Origin: Candidatus Sulfotelmatobacter sp.
GTDB lineage: Bacteria; Acidobacteriota; Terriglobia; Terriglobales; Acidobacteriaceae
Direction: 5' to 3'
Assembly: GCA_030038255.1 (NCBI GenBank)
Contig: JASHPH010000328.1
Span: 1-32,347 of the forward strand
DNA: 32,347 bases
Shown piece by piece: positions 4,477 through 29,794 of this stretch. The first letter of the stretch is position 1; each line of letters opens with the position of its first letter. A model generated the notes under the pieces. The model was not told the origin of the DNA. It ran no database searches and saw only the letters and a list, made by a program, of their open reading frames with translations. The translations under genes were made by a program, and so were the position numbers.

Positions 4477-5124
4477 TTACGGCAGAGAACGATCCATCGC
4501 CAAGTCAAAAAGCATGGCCTTCTGCTGACAGGCCTCCAGCAGGGAGCGCCGGGCTTCATCGTCGCTGGGATCGTCGGCTACGCTGCTCTTGGCGTCGCGA
4601 ATGTACTCGTTGACGCGGCGCAGGTTATCCGCATACTGTGCCTGAGTTTCGGCCGGAAGTTCCGATACTTCCTGCAACAGGTCGTCGTCGTTCAGGCCGG
4701 CGATGGCTGTGTCGGAAACATCCGCGGCAACTCCTGAGAGGACGGCAGGAGCGGTGTTGTTGCTCGCGAGTTGCCCGGACCGGGACTGCTGGCGCACATA
4801 AACACCCGCTGCGATAACCAGGACCGCCGCGACAGGAGCCAGCCAGCGTGTCCATCTCCATGAGCTGCTGAACGAAGGAATGAGCGAACGGCTTGGGCGC
4901 GGCGGGCGGATCAATCCCTCCCGCCGCAGCGCGATTTCAATCGAATTCCACACGCGCGGACTCGGTTCGTCCGCGGCCTGGAGCATCTTCGCCGAAGCGG
5001 CGATCACCTTCATTTCCGCAAGCAGAGCCGAGCACTGCGGACAGGTTTTCAAATGAGCCTGCTGTTCGGCCTTGCTGCCGTCTCCGCTGTCCACCAAGCT
5101 CTTTTGCAGCTCAACGCAATTCAT
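4477..5124 (-). CDS. zinc-finger (zf-HC2) transmembrane anti-sigma factor
   Basis: Residues 1-40 hold a ZAS-type zinc-binding anti-sigma domain: C3 and then H24-x3-C28-x2-C31 (HLKTCPQC). Such domains clamp an ECF sigma factor in the cytoplasm. A single membrane segment lies at about residues 93-110 (WLAPVAAVLVIAAGVYV), followed by a roughly 100-residue periplasmic tail rich in acidic residues. That matches the topology of RsiW/ChrR-like regulators released by regulated proteolysis. It lies 118 bases downstream of an ECF sigma gene on the same strand, its presumed partner. The ATG at 5124 is the first in the frame and gives the Cys-containing N-terminus. Size (215 residues) and layout are normal. 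The signal sensed is unknown. Confidence 0.9.
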   Translation of the reverse strand: MNCVELQKSLVDSGDGSKAEQQAHLKTCPQCSALLAEMKVIAASAKMLQAADEPSPRVWNSIEIALRREGLIRPPRPSRSLIPSFSSSWRWTRWLAPVAAVLVIAAGVYVRQQSRSGQLASNNTAPAVLSGVAADVSDTAIAGLNDDDLLQEVSELPAETQAQYADNLRRVNEYIRDAKSSVADDPSDDEARRSLLEACQQKAMLFDLAMDRSLP

Positions 5125-5242: not shown

Positions 5243-5875
5243 TTACCGTTCTTGCTTCTCAGAATCTTCGACCTTTTCGGCTCGATTCATCTTGAGCAGC
5301 TCGCGCAGCTTCATGCGTGCCTTGTGCAACTGCGACTTGCTGTTGCCGATCGAGCACCCCACGATTTCGGCTATCTCATTATGCTCGTAACCTTCCACAT
5401 CGTGGAGCACAAAAATCGTGCGGTAGCCGGGAGGCAGATCGCTCACCGCCTTCTGTAACTGCATCCGGTCAATGGATCCAGCTAACGCCAGGTCTTGCGC
5501 CCCGAAATCTTTCCTCGGGAAATCGTCCTCGCTGCCTTGCGTGGTCTCTTCGAGCGAGACTGCAGGCAGGTTTTTCTTTCTCAGGTGCATTAGAACCACG
5601 TTCACCGACAACCGATGCAGCCAGGTCGAAAACGCCGATTCGCCGCGGAAGGTCCCAATCTTGCGGTAGAGCTGCAGGAACGCCTCCTGCGTCAGATCCT
5701 CCGCCTCGGCAGTGTTCGCCGTCATGCGCAGACAAAGCGAGTACACGCGCCGCTTATGCCGGTCATAGAGAGCCTGAAAGGCTTCCTGGCTGCCTTCTTT
5801 GGCTTTCTCAATGGCCTCGGCTTCGCTGAGCTCGCTGCTCGATTGCTGTCGTGCTTGTGGCTCTCGGTCGGTCAA
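5243..5875 (-). CDS. RNA polymerase ECF sigma factor (SigE/RpoE-like)
   Basis: This 210-residue ECF sigma factor has region 2 at about residues 30-100, with the core-binding [14 protein letters not shown] (about 60-73) and the -10-recognition stretch [17 protein letters not shown] (76-92). Region 4 lies at about 140-195, with the helix-turn-helix [38 protein letters not shown]. It is presumed to direct transcription of an envelope-stress regulon and to be held by the anti-sigma factor encoded next. The start is TTG at 5875; a TGA lies upstream in frame and the next ATG is inside region 2. AAAAGG a few bases upstream is a plausible ribosome site. It is the first gene of the minus run, so its own promoter, probably autoregulated, should lie in 5876-6130. 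Confidence 0.93.
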
Positions 5876-24443: not shown

Positions 24444-25764
24444 CCGTCAGCTTCTGCAATTCCTCCGGCGAGGTGTTCAGCAAATTCCGCAACACGGTCA
24501 CTTCCGCGGTGATCCCCACGTGCAGGGCCGGGTCCACGTCCGGGGCGAACAGCGGAGAGTGATTCGACGGGAGATGCGTTCCTGCCGCCTTGGCCTCGGC
24601 ATACTTTTGCGGATCGGCTCCGCCCAGGCCGAAATAAAAGCCGGGAACGCCCTGGGCGATGAAATACGAGAAATCCTCTGAAGCCGAGCTGGGTTCTGAG
24701 ATCACCACTTTATCTTTACCGAGGGCGGCTTCCAGAGTAGTTCGCAAGTGCTCGGCGAGCGCCGGATTGTTGTATACCGCGTCCGTGGCTTCGTAGTGTT
24801 CGACCAGCGGTTCCTGTGGAGCACCGGCCCCGGCCGCCTCTGCCTTCGCAAGGCGGGTGATCGCCGCCAGAATTTGCTGGCGCACTTCCTGCTTGAAAGT
24901 TCGTACGGTCAGGCCCATCTCAGCCTGATCGGGAATAATGTTGCTCTTCGTTCCGGCGTGAATGTAGCCGACGGTGATCACCCCCATCTCGCCCGGCTTG
25001 ACTTCGCGCGACATGATGGTTTGCAGCGAAAGAATCGTCCGCGCTGCGATCACGATGGGATCCACCGTCGTATGCGGATACGCCCCATGCCCGCCCTTGC
25101 CGTAAATCGTGATGCGGACCGAGTCCGAGTTCGTGGTCAGAACGCCTGGAACCATCGAGACCATGCCCGCAGGCTCGTAGTTTCCCACGTGTAGTGCGAC
25201 GGCTACGTCGGGCTTGGGAAAGCGCGTGAACAGGCCGTCGCGGATCATCCCTTCTGCCCCTCCGATCGTCTCTTCAGCCGGCTGGCCGATCACCATGAGC
25301 GTCCCATGCCAGGTGTTCTTGCTGTGGGCCATGATTTCGGCCGTGCCCACCAGCGACGCCATGTGCAAGTCGTGCCCGCAAGCGTGCATCACCGGGACAT
25401 CGTGCCCGGCGTCATCTTTTGCGTGCACCTTGCTAGCGTACGGAAGGCCAGTTTTCTCTTCCACGGGCAGCGCGTCGAGCTCCGTACGCAGCATGATAGT
25501 CGGCCCGGCGCCGTTCTTCAGAATGGCCACTACACCGGTCCCGCCAACATGTTCAGTGACCTCGTAGCCAGCGCCGCGCAGGTGCGTCGCCAGCTTGGCC
25601 GCAGTCTGCATCTCATGGCCTGATAACTCCGGATTCTGGTGCACATCGAGGTACAGTGCATAGGCGTCGGGATAAACGGTTTCAACTTCTTTTTTCTGAG
25701 GCGGAGCTTGGGCAAAGGCCGTGGCAGTGAGCGAGATCACCAGCAATAATTTGTGAGCTTTCAT
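24427..25764 (-). CDS. exported M20-family amidohydrolase (aminoacylase/IAA-amino acid hydrolase-like)
   Basis: Members split amide bonds of N-acyl amino acids or similar substrates using a binuclear metal site. From the ATG at 25764 the product has 445 residues. A signal peptide (1-19, ending ATAFAQA) is followed by the M20D metal ligands in MHACGHDLHM (126-135), QPAEETIGGAEGM (161-173) and ALHVGNYEP, and the C-terminal SNHSPLF. The dimerisation domain (about 215-330) includes GKGGHGAYPH. I chose this start because it gives a clean signal peptide; the frame stays open upstream to 26352, but that part is antisense to the next gene and has no family features. Its substrate is unknown. It converges on and overlaps mqnE by 17 bases. 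Confidence 0.9.
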   Translation of the reverse strand: MKAHKLLLVISLTATAFAQAPPQKKEVETVYPDAYALYLDVHQNPELSGHEMQTAAKLATHLRGAGYEVTEHVGGTGVVAILKNGAGPTIMLRTELDALPVEEKTGLPYASKVHAKDDAGHDVPVMHACGHDLHMASLVGTAEIMAHSKNTWHGTLMVIGQPAEETIGGAEGMIRDGLFTRFPKPDVAVALHVGNYEPAGMVSMVPGVLTTNSDSVRITIYGKGGHGAYPHTTVDPIVIAARTILSLQTIMSREVKPGEMGVITVGYIHAGTKSNIIPDQAEMGLTVRTFKQEVRQQILAAITRLAKAEAAGAGAPQEPLVEHYEATDAVYNNPALAEHLRTTLEAALGKDKVVISEPSSASEDFSYFIAQGVPGFYFGLGGADPQKYAEAKAAGTHLPSNHSPLFAPDVDPALHVGITAEVTVLRNLLNTSPEELQKLTATPQP

Positions 25765-25882
25765 GGCGTGGGGATCATAGCGGCTTCGATCCACCGCTGG
25801 CAACAGCGGCTGGCAGAAGTCGCCGGTCTCTTTTGGGAAATGGGCATCGTTTTGCAGGCAAAGGGAAGCTGCAATTCTCCGC

Positions 25883-25909
25883 TTGCCTCTTTTCCGCCGG
25901 GTGTACAAT
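25883..25909 (+). promoter_or_regulatory. candidate promoter of the HPF-sigma gene
   Basis: TTGCCT (25883-25888) and TACAAT (25904-25909) are separated by 15 bases and lie about 70 bases before the ATG at 25978, in a divergent gap. The spacing is short of the ideal 17, so this is tentative. Confidence 0.3.
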
Positions 25910-25977
25910 TCGGCGTAGAGAGGGTTTTGTAAGACAGCACTTGGTTGCGCACTTCGTACAGCAAGGCCGAGGCGCTC

Positions 25978-27030
25978 ATGAACGTCCACGTAAGTTACAG
26001 GCTTCATAAAACTCCTGCCGTCGAAAAAGATATCCAGCATCAAATCGAAAAACTGCGGAAGCGCCTGCAGGTCTTCCGTCCCGAACTCGTTCACCTGAAA
26101 GGAGTGGTGGAGGAGGTCTCGCAGCGCGAGGGAATCAATGTTTCGCTGAATCTGCGCTTGCCCTCGGGGCAGATGGCTGTCCAGGCTGCAGCTCCAACAG
26201 CGACCGCAGCCGTGAAGAGCGCGTTTGAAGATCTGCTGCAGCAGCTCAACAAGCACAAAGAAATCTTGCGTTCGTCGCACAAATGGATTCGCGGACGTCG
26301 CGGAGACAGCGCGCGCGCGGCTGTGCCCGTGCGCGAGGTTCCTTTCGAACAAACGATGGCCGCGGTTTTTCCGGCGGCGGTGTCAGCGGACGATGTTCGT
26401 TCCTACGTCAATGCCAACCTGGCGCGGCTCGAACGCTTCGTGGAGCGCGAAATCTACTTCCGTGAGACTCAGGAGGGCGTCAGTCCCGACAGGCTCACCA
26501 AAGAAGAGGTCATTGACGAAACCATCGCCGCCGCCCTCGGCGATGGTCAGGAGAAGCCCGAGCGGCTGGCGCTCGAGCCCTGGCTCTACCGGCTGGCTCT
26601 GCGGGCGCTCGATGAGCTCTCCCGCACCGACGAGAGCAACGAGAACGCCTTCTGCCTGGAAGAGTCGGCGCGGCGGCCCAACGTCAAGGCCAGCGACGAA
26701 CCGGAGTTGCAATTCCATCAGCCCGATGAATCCATCACGGGTGAGACCGTAATCCCCGACTCCCGGGTGGCCACACCGGAGCAAATCATGGCTTCGGACG
26801 AGATATTGCGCCTGATCGCATCCGCGCTGCGCGATCTGGGCTCGGGGCCGCGCGAAGCTTTCATCCTCCATGCGGTGGAAGGCTTCAGCATCGAACAGAT
26901 CACGGGGATCACCGGTCTTACACCGGAACGGGTAGTCGATTTTATTTCGGCGGCGCGCGATCACCTGCGCAAAGCGCCCGGCCTTTCCCGGGACCTTCGC
27001 AGTCGGCTCGCTCCAACCGGCGCCGCTTAA
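25978..27030 (+). CDS. ribosome-hibernation factor (HPF/RaiA-like) fused to sigma-70-like regions 2 and 4
   Basis: The 350-residue product has three parts. Residues 1-103 resemble HPF/RaiA: an opening strand NVHVSYRL, a helix with VEKDIQHQIEKLRKRLQVF (15-33), strands 37-71, and a long helix TAAVKSAFEDLLQQLNKHKEIL (76-97) ending HKW. This domain sits in the ribosome's A/P-site region in the known proteins. Residues about 137-216 resemble sigma region 2: RSYVNANLARLERFVEREI (141-159), LTKEEVIDETIAAAL (173-187) and EPWLYRLALRALDEL (200-214). Residues about 277-333 resemble region 4: LRDLGSGPREAFILHAVEGFS, then the helix-turn-helix-like IEQITGITGLTPERVVDFISAARDHLRK. A Glu/Pro-rich linker joins them. 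ATG at 25978 has GAGG five bases upstream; an in-frame TTG at 25945 adds only 11 residues. The next gene follows after 30 bases. The domain assignments are by eye, and the combined function is unknown. Confidence 0.8.
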   Translation: MNVHVSYRLHKTPAVEKDIQHQIEKLRKRLQVFRPELVHLKGVVEEVSQREGINVSLNLRLPSGQMAVQAAAPTATAAVKSAFEDLLQQLNKHKEILRSSHKWIRGRRGDSARAAVPVREVPFEQTMAAVFPAAVSADDVRSYVNANLARLERFVEREIYFRETQEGVSPDRLTKEEVIDETIAAALGDGQEKPERLALEPWLYRLALRALDELSRTDESNENAFCLEESARRPNVKASDEPELQFHQPDESITGETVIPDSRVATPEQIMASDEILRLIASALRDLGSGPREAFILHAVEGFSIEQITGITGLTPERVVDFISAARDHLRKAPGLSRDLRSRLAPTGAA

Positions 27031-27060
27031 ACTCTTTATTCAATTCTGGGGAGATGACCC

Positions 27061-28293
27061 ATGAGCATTACGCGCGAACAAATCCGAGAGTTAGCTGAAT
27101 TGCAGGACACGAATGGCTGTGCCGTCAGTTTCTATTTCCAACCATCCACCCCACGCAACAAGGCTCACAAGGAAGACACGATTCTGGTCAAGGATCTGGT
27201 GCGCGAAGCACTGCAGCGTCTGGAAGACAAAGGCAAGAAAGAGAGCGCGAGGGCCGACATGGACCGCATTCTGCGCCTCTCGGCCGATCTGCGCAGCAAC
27301 GGAACCCACGCCAAAGCTGTATTCGCTTGTGCCGCTCACAAGTTCTGGCGCGAATACGATCTGCCTGCGGTCATCGCGAGCACTCAGCTTGCCGTCGATC
27401 GCCATTTCCATCTCAAGCCGCTGGCTCAGCTGCTCGGAGCTTTCCCCCGGCTTGGCGTGGTCCTGGCGGATCGCCACCGCGCCCGCTTCTTCGATCTCCG
27501 TCTCGGTGAATTAACCGAACGCGAAGGCTTGTTTCAGCCGCTCTCCCGCAAGGGACGCAGCGACGGCTATGCCGGCTACGATGGCGGCCACGCCCAGCGC
27601 CGTGTCGATGACGAAGCCCGCCAGCATTTCAAGGCCATCGCCGATGTGCTGAAACAGTCGCTGGAAAAAGGGGTGTTCGAAAAATGGATCCTCGGCTGCC
27701 AGGATTCGCACCGTTCGCAGCTTGAGCCGCATTTGCATCCCTACGTCAGTCAGGCCTTGCTGGGCCGGTTCCAGGCCGATGTGGCCCACATCTCGCGGGA
27801 CGAAATCCGCTCGCACGCACAACATATTCTCGAGAAGTGGCAGAGCGATCGCTGCCGCCAACTGGTCGGCCAGGTCATCAATGAGGCCCGCAGCAAGGGG
27901 CGTGGCGTCACCGGATTGCGCCGCGTGCTGCGCTCGCTCGAACTCGGCGAAGTGCAGACTTTGCTGATCGGGGAACACTTCGTCGCCCACGCGGTCGAAT
28001 GCTCCGGCTGCGGACATCTCGACGCGCACGTCGTCAACTTCTGCCCGGTGTGCGGCCGCGCGACGAAAGAGATTGTCGACGTGGGCGAGGCGATTTTGCC
28101 CCGCGTCATTCATCGCGACATCGAGACCTTTTACGTGAAAGACAACCCGGAGTTTGACACAGTGGGCAACATCGCAGCCTTGCTCCGATTCCGGATCGAG
28201 AATGTCGAGCCGATCGACGCCGCCGTCGCCGACCGGCTCATCAAGGCGGGCGCGGCGTATCCAGGACGCTTGCGCCGCTTCGCTAGCCGGTAA
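27061..28293 (+). CDS. bacterial eRF1/Pelota-like (baeRF-type) protein with zinc ribbon
   Basis: The 410 residues follow the three-domain plan of archaeal/eukaryotic release factor 1. Domain 1 is about 1-125. Domain 2 (about 128-265) starts with a strand LGVVLADRHRARFFDL and carries a loop GGHAQRR at 175-181, then a long helix VDDEARQHFKAIADVLKQSL. Domain 3 (about 270-385) has LRRVLRSLELGEVQTLLI. An inserted zinc ribbon has C314, C317, C328 and C331 (CSGC, CPVC), as in archaeal RF1. The catalytic Gln of the canonical GGQ would be His177 here, with Gln at 179. Burroughs and Aravind described such bacterial 'baeRF' proteins and proposed roles in ribosome rescue; I rely on memory for this. A GGGGAG site at 27048-27053 supports ATG 27061. 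It follows the HPF-sigma gene by 30 bases, so the two are likely cotranscribed. Peptidyl-tRNA hydrolysis is inference. Confidence 0.75.
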   Translation: MSITREQIRELAELQDTNGCAVSFYFQPSTPRNKAHKEDTILVKDLVREALQRLEDKGKKESARADMDRILRLSADLRSNGTHAKAVFACAAHKFWREYDLPAVIASTQLAVDRHFHLKPLAQLLGAFPRLGVVLADRHRARFFDLRLGELTEREGLFQPLSRKGRSDGYAGYDGGHAQRRVDDEARQHFKAIADVLKQSLEKGVFEKWILGCQDSHRSQLEPHLHPYVSQALLGRFQADVAHISRDEIRSHAQHILEKWQSDRCRQLVGQVINEARSKGRGVTGLRRVLRSLELGEVQTLLIGEHFVAHAVECSGCGHLDAHVVNFCPVCGRATKEIVDVGEAILPRVIHRDIETFYVKDNPEFDTVGNIAALLRFRIENVEPIDAAVADRLIKAGAAYPGRLRRFASR

Positions 28294-28335
28294 GAGGTAG
28301 CCATCGGGGGCTGGTTGCATGTTCCTCCTCGAAGG

Positions 28336-28453
28336 CGTCATCCCGAAGACCCGCGCTTGCACCAGCGCGGCCGAGGGATCTCGCGCGGACCAACGTGGCG
28401 CTCCACGCGAGATCCCTCGCTCCGCCTGAAACCCAGCTGCGCCCGGGATGACG
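28336..28453. repeat. multi-arm palindromic intergenic element (REP/MITE-like)
   Basis: Three perfect inverted pairs occur within 118 bases. CGTCATCCCG (28336-28345) pairs with CGGGATGACG (28444-28453). CGAGGGATCTCGCG (28372-28385) pairs with CGCGAGATCCCTCG (28406-28419). A short CCGCGCT/AGCGCGG hairpin lies at 28351-28370 inside the left arm. The folded form would be a long branched hairpin. It sits in the 253-base gap between the eRF1-like gene and the asparaginase-like gene. The 'GTCATCCCG ... GAGGGATCT' wording looks like a dispersed element. There is no reading frame and no T-run for a plain terminator. Confidence 0.75.
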
Positions 28454-28468
28454 TCGTTCCTCTGGTAC

Positions 28469-28496
28469 CCTCCGTGAATTTCTTCATTCCTCCGTG
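28469..28496 (+). repeat. CCTCCGTG direct repeat, 20 bases apart
   Basis: CCTCCGTG occurs at 28469-28476 and 28489-28496 just after the palindromic element, within similar contexts (GGTACCCTCCGTG and TTCCTCCGTGGTATCC). It may belong to the same dispersed sequence family; the function is unknown. Confidence 0.45.
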
Positions 28497-28546
28497 GTAT
28501 CCTTCGCGTTCGCCTGCAAATAGGAGCATCTTCCCAGGGGGACCTC

Positions 28547-29794
28547 GTGACATTCTCACGCCGTGATTTCGTGAAAACCTCCGTTCTTGGCGCCGTGGCC
28601 GCCAAAGTGGGCGCGCCAGCCGCGCTCGCCGAATTTCCGGCGCAGGATCACGCTGCTCAAGGCAGTGCGCCGAAGCGTCCCATCATCATCTGTGCGAACG
28701 TCGGTTACCCTTTCGTTGAGCCGGCGTATGCGTTCCTCAAAGGCGGCGGCGATACGCTCGATGCCGCGATTCGCGTAGTCAAAGGCGCCGAGGACGATCC
28801 CAACATCGACACCGTCGGCTTGGGCGGGTTGCCCAACGAGGAAGGCGTAGTCGAACTCGACGCCAGCTGCATGCATGGGCCGACTCGGCGCGCCGGCTCG
28901 GTCGGAGCCGTGCGCAACATCAAGAACGTCTCCATGGTCTCCAAGGCCGTGTTCGACCACACTGGGCACGTCATGCTGGTGGGTGAGGGCGCAGAACGGT
29001 TTGCCGTTGCGGTCGGCTTTCCCCGCGAAAACTTGCTGACCGAACGCTCGCGCAAAATCTGGCTGCTGTGGAAAGAATTCAATTCCGACCGCGATTGGTG
29101 GGGGCCCGGCATGGCGGATCCGAACTGGCATCCGCCCGCGCCGTACTCCAAGCCGCAAGCTGAACTGTGGCGGGACCGCATTGAGCAACTGCGCCGGCGT
29201 GCCGCCGAACTGGGCATCGAACCGGAGTTCCAAATGGCGGCGGTTCGCCGTGTGCTGTTCCCGCCCACAGGCACCATCCACTGCTCGGCGCTTAACGAAA
29301 AGGGAGAAATATCGGGCGTCACCAGTACCAGCGGGTTGGCCTTCAAACTGCCCGGCCGTTGCGGCGACTCGCCGGTGATCGGGGCGGGCTGCTACACCGA
29401 CCAGGACGTGGGCTCCGCCGGCGCGACCGGCGCCGGGGAAGAGAACATAAAGGTTGCCGGCGCTCATACCATCGTCGAAAACATGCGCCGCGGTATGTCT
29501 CCGCAGGAAGCCGGCATGGACGCGCTGAAGCGCATCGTGCGGAACTACAACGGCGACATGAACAAACTGCACTACATGGACATGACTTATTACATTTTGC
29601 GCAAGGACGGCGCCTATGCGGGAGTGTGTTTGTGGGAGGGATACTCCGCCGGCCATCCGCACAAGTTCGCCGTGCATGACGGGACCCTGCGCTCGGAAGT
29701 GGCGACTCCGCTGCTGAAGGGATATTCGCAGGAGTGGCCGCCATTCCCCGCAATTCCCGAGGAGTTGAAGAAGGACTCGGAGTACCTGAAGTAA
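28547..29794 (+). CDS. Tat-exported glycosylasparaginase / isoaspartyl-peptidase family (N-terminal nucleophile) hydrolase
   Basis: The family cleaves asparagine side-chain amides, such as N4-(GlcNAc)-asparagine or isoaspartyl peptides, after self-cleavage exposes an N-terminal Thr. A twin-arginine signal is visible (SRRDFVKTS, residues 4-12, hydrophobic to about 28), so export is folded, via Tat. GGDTLDAAI (68-76) and GLGGLPNEEGVVELDA (91-106) are the alpha-subunit marks. The nucleophile region TGTIHCSALNEKGEI (241-255) continues into SGVTSTSGL, and RCGDSPVIGAGCYTD (271-285) is the substrate loop. Thr243 is the likely nucleophile, where better-known members have a DTIG-type start. A long insert (about 160-240) separates the halves. 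The GTG at 28547 has AGGGGG five bases upstream. The gene stands alone after the palindromic element. Confidence 0.87.
   Translation: MTFSRRDFVKTSVLGAVAAKVGAPAALAEFPAQDHAAQGSAPKRPIIICANVGYPFVEPAYAFLKGGGDTLDAAIRVVKGAEDDPNIDTVGLGGLPNEEGVVELDASCMHGPTRRAGSVGAVRNIKNVSMVSKAVFDHTGHVMLVGEGAERFAVAVGFPRENLLTERSRKIWLLWKEFNSDRDWWGPGMADPNWHPPAPYSKPQAELWRDRIEQLRRRAAELGIEPEFQMAAVRRVLFPPTGTIHCSALNEKGEISGVTSTSGLAFKLPGRCGDSPVIGAGCYTDQDVGSAGATGAGEENIKVAGAHTIVENMRRGMSPQEAGMDALKRIVRNYNGDMNKLHYMDMTYYILRKDGAYAGVCLWEGYSAGHPHKFAVHDGTLRSEVATPLLKGYSQEWPPFPAIPEELKKDSEYLK

Follow-up and report, generated by a model that had tools for sequence, protein, structure and literature searches.

Several ribosome-hibernation factors are known, among them HPF/RaiA, long HPF, RMF, Balon and HibA of archaea. 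The stretch of DNA that we analysed (the window, 32,347 nucleotides from a Candidatus Sulfotelmatobacter sp. contig) contains a gene whose product a first-pass annotation read as an HPF/RaiA-like domain followed by a sigma-factor-like module. This raises two questions: whether both halves of the protein are what they appear to be, and what a sigma fold would do on a protein that docks on ribosomes.

Domain architecture of the fusion protein

25978..27030, + strand: HPF/RaiA–sigma-like fusion gene (P0001), 350 aa, one open frame from ATG to stop
25978..26286, + strand: HPF/RaiA (S30AE) domain, residues 1-103, with an HPF-like Q-x-x-KHK-x-x-LR tail (PF02482, fold, alignment with HPF chains)
26287..26385, + strand: variable linker 1, residues 104-136 (pLDDT <50 at 103-130; highest median dN/dS, 0.22)
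26386..26637, + strand: sigma2-like module, residues 137-220 (TIGR02937 from residue 171, model helices, alignment with PDB 8z6g and 6in7)
26686..26763, + strand: conserved acidic linker motif (SDEPELQFHQPDE...), residues 237-262 (QPD[ED] count, conservation)
26764..26976, + strand: sigma4-like module, residues 263-333, with a degenerate recognition helix at 316-332 (PF22233 above, PF08281 below cut-off)

We confirm that the gene at 25978-27030 joins an HPF/RaiA domain to a sigma-70/ECF-derived sigma2-linker-sigma4 module. PF02482 matches residues 9-97 of P0001 (E 2.3e-8; 35.1 bits, cut-off 23.7), which bears out the earlier assignment of residues 1-103 to the HPF/RaiA family. In the AlphaFold model this half has the beta-alpha-beta-beta-beta-alpha fold and is matched by Foldseek to HPF chains with TMt up to 0.85 (4hei, 2rql). 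Searching the PDB with a 19-sequence profile of the HPF part gives 23 matches at E<=0.01, the alignment reaching through the KHK tail. The dimerisation domain of long HPF (PF16321, S30AE_C), which the first-pass annotation took to be lacking here, gives no match in P0001 at E<=1 in our search either. P0001 is therefore unlike the known forms: it shares the fold, the PF02482 match and the Q-x-x-KHK tail with short HPF/RaiA (YfiA) but has about 250 extra residues carrying a sigma-derived module, and it shares an HPF domain, a linker and an extra C-terminal module with long HPF (PF02482 plus PF16321), except that this module is sigma-like and not S30AE_C. Archaeal HibA (HPF-CBS) also has HPF fused to an unrelated module, as given in the available text of PMC13324472; its module is CBS and its HPF domain is C-terminal, whereas P0001 has a sigma fold instead and no CBS match at E<=1.

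The C-terminal half is sigma-derived and the boundaries first proposed for it are about right, but the two Pfam models named for it did not fare as expected: PF04542 (sigma region 2) has no match in P0001 at E<=1 and PF08281 (region 4) falls just under its cut-off (E 5.1e-5, 23.3 bits vs 25.7). TIGR02937 (sigma70-ECF) spans residues 171-333 at E 4.8e-8, below cut-off (32.8 bits vs 42.9), and PF22233 (PhyR_sigma-like) passes its cut-off (E 4e-7, 30.2 bits vs 27). The PF22233 and PF08281 matches fall in residues 285-328; the sigma2 part is visible only inside longer sigma alignments and as model helices. TIGR02937 is above cut-off in four of eight relatives scanned (L062, L097, L098, L100). Of the Pfam models, PF04545 passes in L098 and PF08281 in L062 and L102, as well as in L002, L044, L055, L071, L101, L138 and L143. 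With these members scoring above the thresholds of ordinary region 4 or ECF models, the fold is plainly that of a sigma factor. In the family alignment (A1, 42 members), PF08281 matches 42, PF22233 40 and PF02482 39 at E<=0.01, and the A1 profile run against PDB sequences finds sigmaE best (1or7_A, E 2.1e-13) together with the HPF chains 4v8h_AX (E 7.1e-6), 6h4n_x (E 2.4e-5) and 2rql_A (E 4.7e-5).

The model of P0001 consists of three confident modules, namely HPF, helices 137-220 and helices 267-347, with disordered linkers. Ten-residue means of pLDDT are 85-95 in HPF, 75-93 over 131-220, 75-92 over 271-340, 66 in block 261-270 and 36-46 in the linkers. The pTM is 0.33 and the domain arrangement is therefore undefined. 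The structural comparison suggested at the outset came out clearly for the HPF half and in part for the other: ECF sigmas are retrieved at E<=1e-3 but with TMt of about 0.3-0.4 and large rmsd, as expected because the domain packing is undefined. Neither of the outcomes named as fatal to the fusion, a lack of HPF or sigma matches or a single known fold throughout, was seen.

The fusion recurs in other genomes, which had been named as support for it, and because the architecture is found in so many of them it is not an assembly artefact. Conservation, linker and contact counts below come from a single automatic alignment of 79 fusions. Its rows are the window protein with its kin (58 distinct proteins), 13 members from further classes of Acidobacteriota and 8 encoded on proteobacterial plasmids. 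Four relatives were left out of alignments and counted in synteny (truncated L019, L025 and L026, and L027, in two frames); six identical proteins and L037, L089 and L092-L094 (repeats or sigma-only) were removed, and L099 was translated and kept outside the counts. L027 (1724-2715) is split near residues 79-96, by a broken copy or a sequencing error.

Conservation of the two halves

The HPF half is the best-conserved region of the 79 aligned fusions (mean 0.452), and across 24 close relatives it has the lowest median dN/dS (0.06, with 0.09 for sigma2, 0.10 for QPDE and 0.14 for sigma4). Among the 58 kin fusions, the HPF residues K/R25, Q89 and K/R94 are present in all 58, H93 and K/R98 in 57 and K/R92 in 55. 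The tail is divergent in other Acidobacteriota classes (Q89 in 3/13, H93 in 1/13, R98 in 3/13), and the plasmid fusions diverge as well (K/R25 in 1/8, K/R94 in 0/8).

In family f2, which belongs to the same order as the window, 13/14 genomes have the fusion and in 12/14 it is the sole PF02482 protein found, the exceptions of that search being one genome with none (G667) and one with two partial matches (G670). The fusion is also the sole PF02482 protein found in the three f8 fusion genomes. "Only HPF" may overstate these counts because the PF02482 genome search is incompletely sensitive, leaving the HPF half of known fusions in G352 and G147 unreported, and because part of the f2 and f8 assemblies fall short of completeness (54% at the lowest). 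With no HPF protein besides it found in 12/14 f2 genomes, the fusion is probably a working hibernation factor. PF16321 is found in 28/29 fusion genomes of f1, 0/8 of f2 and f8, and 1/1 of f6. The genome of the window has a separate canonical long HPF on contig C33 (L036; PF02482 plus PF16321 at 25.3 bits vs 25), whose gene follows a frame that resembles RpoN by eye. HPF-only relatives also occur: L075-L086, twelve proteins of 112-135 aa, match the HPF half of the window protein, some of them in f8, where others are fused.

The sigma half is under purifying selection (dN/dS 0.09-0.14) and is not decaying. We take R171, R173 and R176 of sigmaE to be its -35 contacts and scored the equivalent positions in the region 4 recognition helix. 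We found that at least two of the three are basic in 4/78 fusions vs 9/11 PF08281 proteins from the window's own genome (p 5.6e-8, inflated by relatedness and thus only indicative). Position 322 is basic in 1/78 fusions vs 7/11 controls, and the mean charge of the recognition helix is +0.6 vs +3.2. P0001 itself has V320, D321, F322 and A325 in this helix. The controls are the 11 of 16 own-genome PF08281 loci that could be aligned, just two of them in the sigma2 part. At 4477-5124 and 5243-5875 (-) of the window lie an ordinary sigma gene (PF08281 E 6.6e-17), which is one of these controls, and then, by eye, an anti-sigma-like frame. Additionally, the Q of region 2.2, presumably a core-binding signature residue, is replaced by D in 71/79 fusions. 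The loss of contact residues in most members, and the better Pfam score of P0001 with the PhyR sigma-like domain than with region 4, suggest that the sigma half is probably not reading promoters. PhyR is an example of a sigma-like protein without DNA binding.

The linker between sigma2 and sigma4 contains QPD[ED] in 67/79 fusions, where 0.008 is expected per protein. Mean conservation of this acidic motif is 0.436, close to that of the HPF half, and the model has low confidence there. The motif is absent from 12/79 (L062, L065, L066-L074 and L144), which include the f2 and f8 members, and is therefore not essential everywhere.

Gene neighbourhood and distribution

27061..28293, + strand: Balon-like/baeRF family 10 protein P0002, 410 aa (PF18854 E 1e-21, cut-off passed)
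25883..25909, + strand: putative promoter TTGCCT, 15 nt, TACAAT (GTGTANAAT recurrence; TTGCCT by eye, spacer short)
25936..25977, + strand: conserved 5' leader with Shine-Dalgarno-like GAGG at 25969-25972 (conservation)

The downstream gene, P0002, starts 30 nt behind the fusion gene and is probably co-transcribed with it. Its model (pTM 0.73) has the aeRF1/Balon fold, the top Foldseek matches being mycobacterial Balon 8v9j and 8v9l (TMt 0.83). P0002 resembles Balon/baeRF in fold and in adjacency to an HPF gene but differs in its NCBIfam scores: it matches Rv2629 (E 2.5e-14), Msmeg1130 (E 9e-14) and Balon (AOC03_06830, E 3.9e-11), all under the hibernation-factor equivalog cut-offs (53.2 vs 320, 51.2 vs 480 and 43 vs 330 bits). 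P0002 has four cysteines (C314, C317, C328, C331) that never vary among 32 aligned relatives; they are a possible zinc ribbon, zinc-ribbon Pfam models matching at E 0.14 or worse.

We examined 62 fusion loci including the window, 58 of which have at least 700 nt downstream, and observed a Balon-like gene adjacent to the fusion in 47 of these 58; the 11 loci with no adjacent partner are L046, L048, L060, L061, L062, L066-L070 and L072. An HPF-only relative (L078) also has a Balon-like gene beside it, which hints that the partner follows the HPF half. Adjacency of Balon/baeRF genes to HPF/RaiA genes is described in the available texts of PMC10901736 and PMC6514570. In PDB 8rd8 a single 70S holds both RaiA and Balon. 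The neighbours of Balon genes given in the available text of PMC10901736 include alternative sigma70 factors, and fusions like P0001 may be among them.

Upstream of the fusion gene, GTGTANAAT occurs within 110 nt in 43/49 leaders vs 0.07% of shuffles, and the leader is strikingly conserved in 15 close relatives. Folds of single leaders suggest a hairpin, with z-scores between +0.6 and -2.4 for 8 of them. A hairpin sequestering the Shine-Dalgarno sequence was considered and rejected: RNAalifold gave a different weak structure, the proposed one has no covariation, and mean GAGG accessibility over 43 leaders is 0.323 vs 0.343 in shuffled leaders (p 0.50). Rfam gives no match over 25400-28600.

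Scanning genome contigs with the window protein yielded 28 loci, all from MAGs of Candidatus Sulfotelmatobacter, Acidobacteriaceae, Acidobacteria or Terriglobia. Across 399 genomes of the class, 123 match at E<=1e-5, with the fusion in 38 and one half only in 85 by that search. A search of 297 genomes of the phylum gave 14 strong matches outside the class, and both halves are covered in 11. L142 has no open frame, whereas the remaining 13 loci could be translated. Five of the 13 were scanned and all five have PF02482 and PF08281 at E<=0.01, PF02482 being under cut-off in L143. In a quick-method tree of 49 of the 79 rows, class members other than L074 cluster together (SH-aLRT 96), with weak and long deep branches. 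We also looked for a fusion paralogue in the genome of the window and rejected the candidates: single-sequence matches are all at E 0.0036 or worse, and an extra match found by profile on C62 (E 4.5e-14) covers the sigma half only and is a plain sigma by its range.

Two further neighbours were observed. A gene with an OB-fold and an HD domain precedes the fusion in other Acidobacteriota classes (L140:3192-4181; L133, L134 and L139 are similar by eye), a layout that we take to be that of YhaM-type exoribonucleases. YhaM targets hibernation-factor mRNA in Staphylococcus, according to the available text of PMC11347170. In several families the fusion or HPF gene is immediately preceded by a gene for a protein of ~270-330 aa (L068:3894-4757; by eye L067, L070, L071, L075 and L078); Pfam gives nothing at E<=0.001 for the single example scanned.

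Spread beyond Acidobacteriota was followed through plasmid and E. coli collections. At E<=0.01 the window protein matches 27 plasmid records, and in 20 the match covers at least 80% of its length. Eight such plasmid proteins, including two enterobacterial orf11, give a profile that aligns end to end with the acidobacterial one (prob 100, E 1.5e-45, 328 columns). Stress genes lie beside 7/8 of the aligned plasmid fusions. In plasmids from Burkholderia, Shinella, Paracoccus, Sphingomonas and Paraburkholderia, the set varies by plasmid and is drawn from hsp20, AAA-ATPase, ftsH, groEL, dnaK, hdeD, yfdX or antiporter genes. The M. extorquens record has only a predicted yfdX1 nearby and the Cupriavidus record has no annotation there. 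The plasmid fusions are annotated as sigma-28, sigma-70 family, FliA, sigma-like HTH or hypothetical protein. A phage origin was considered, and the plasmid member L097 has no match in the phage collection.

An island on a Klebsiella plasmid carries tLST/LHR orf11 (L103:12001-13146), annotated as hypothetical. Profile comparison identifies enterobacterial tLST orf11 as a divergent relative of the window protein: it aligns end to end with the window-family profile (prob 98.9, E 2.5e-17, 324 columns) and has a QPDD motif, but it is 381 aa long and Pfam does not detect an HPF half in the two orf11 proteins scanned. Because that half is unseen by Pfam and weak when compared alone (prob 21.8), the HPF label of orf11 rests on intermediates. 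The orf11 protein finds 302 plasmid records, mostly near-identical, and its DNA matches 152/5426 complete E. coli genomes; no Balon-like gene is among the annotated neighbours in orf11 islands. In the available text of PMC8407380, 7/13 tLST deletions lowered heat or chlorine survival, orf11 not among them, and deletion of orf11 left lipid oxidation unchanged in a laboratory strain.

Possible roles of the fusion

We consider it likely that P0001 is an HPF/RaiA ribosome-hibernation factor whose ECF-derived sigma fold became a protein-docking module. Family membership and the conserved tail suggest that the HPF domain would occupy the mRNA/tRNA channel on the small subunit when a ribosome is idle, like HPF and RaiA. 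The Balon-like neighbour product would take up the A site of that ribosome. The C-terminal half descends from an ECF-type sigma, with its sigma2-linker-sigma4 layout held by selection and its promoter-contact residues mostly gone, and would dock a protein partner, flexibly tethered to the hibernating ribosome. Core RNA polymerase is our first, tentative candidate for what is docked; self-association or a second ribosome contact is a more doubtful second, and an anti-sigma factor bound in the manner of PhyR is an unlikely third.

If the partner is core RNA polymerase, the sigma-like half would bind it promoter-blind and ribosome and polymerase would be parked together in dormancy, a possibility that we regard with considerable doubt. 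The sigma modules and the mostly conserved acidic linker are kept in order, as if a bipartite sigma-binding surface were in use, and promoter contacts are mostly lost under selection on both halves; the D at the presumed core-binding position of region 2.2 argues against it. A fuller version is rather unlikely as a whole: the HPF half would lock the ribosome, the promoter-blind sigma half would capture core RNA polymerase or its regulators, the acidic QPDE would replace the sigma2-sigma4 linker, the Balon-like partner would complete a hibernation cassette, and relatives would travel on mobile stress-tolerance islands.

The sigma fold could also replace the C-terminal domain of long HPF, either by self-association into its own type of 100S or by a second contact that clamps the 70S, which we regard as somewhat unlikely. 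The C-domain of long HPF is not found in those f2 and f8 genomes that show no HPF besides the fusion, and the fused module of HibA touches the large subunit in the available text of PMC13324472. However, a separate C-domain is kept in nearly all f1 fusion genomes (28/29), both sigma2 and sigma4 are retained beyond the needs of a dimer, and the model shows no domain packing.

PhyR resembles P0001 in the PF22233 match, which is above cut-off in P0001 and present at E<=0.01 in 40/42 members, and in its degenerate sigma4 helix, so the sigma-like half might sequester an anti-sigma factor and free a stress sigma. We find this improbable: PhyR has a receiver domain where P0001 has HPF, P0001 has no receiver domain match, and NepR was found in 0/101 class genomes by a search whose control was positive.

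It is quite improbable that P0001 functions as an ECF-type sigma factor with its activity gated when the HPF half binds ribosomes. P0001 shares the sigma2-sigma4 order and a profile match with ECF-type sigma factors (sigmaE and others), sigmaE being the best PDB match of the profile, several relatives pass sigma models, and plasmid members are annotated as sigma factors; but the -35 contact residues and charge are lost in most members, PF04542 is unmatched in P0001, and the linker is long with a conserved acidic motif. The few members that keep two of the three basic positions (4/78) could differ in this respect. Finally, a generic stress protein whose HPF half does not bind ribosomes is very unlikely, since this half is best conserved and has the lowest dN/dS in close kin and 12/14 f2 genomes show no HPF besides the fusion, even though the HPF half of two orf11 proteins escapes Pfam and is weak by profile, tail residues differ in other classes and plasmids, and orf11 deletion has no acute heat or chlorine phenotype in the available text of PMC8407380.

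In the open-access literature searched we found no published description of an HPF-sigma fusion. The combination of HPF with a sigma-derived module would be a new architecture, present in several Acidobacteriota classes and on proteobacterial plasmids, and the uncharacterised and widely transferred tLST orf11 gains its first testable hypothesis. The role of the fusion can be tested directly in genomes that show no other HPF. Altogether, the fusion may represent a new way to tie dormant ribosomes to a second partner, and if the sigma half does bind RNA polymerase, the dormancy of both machines would be physically linked.
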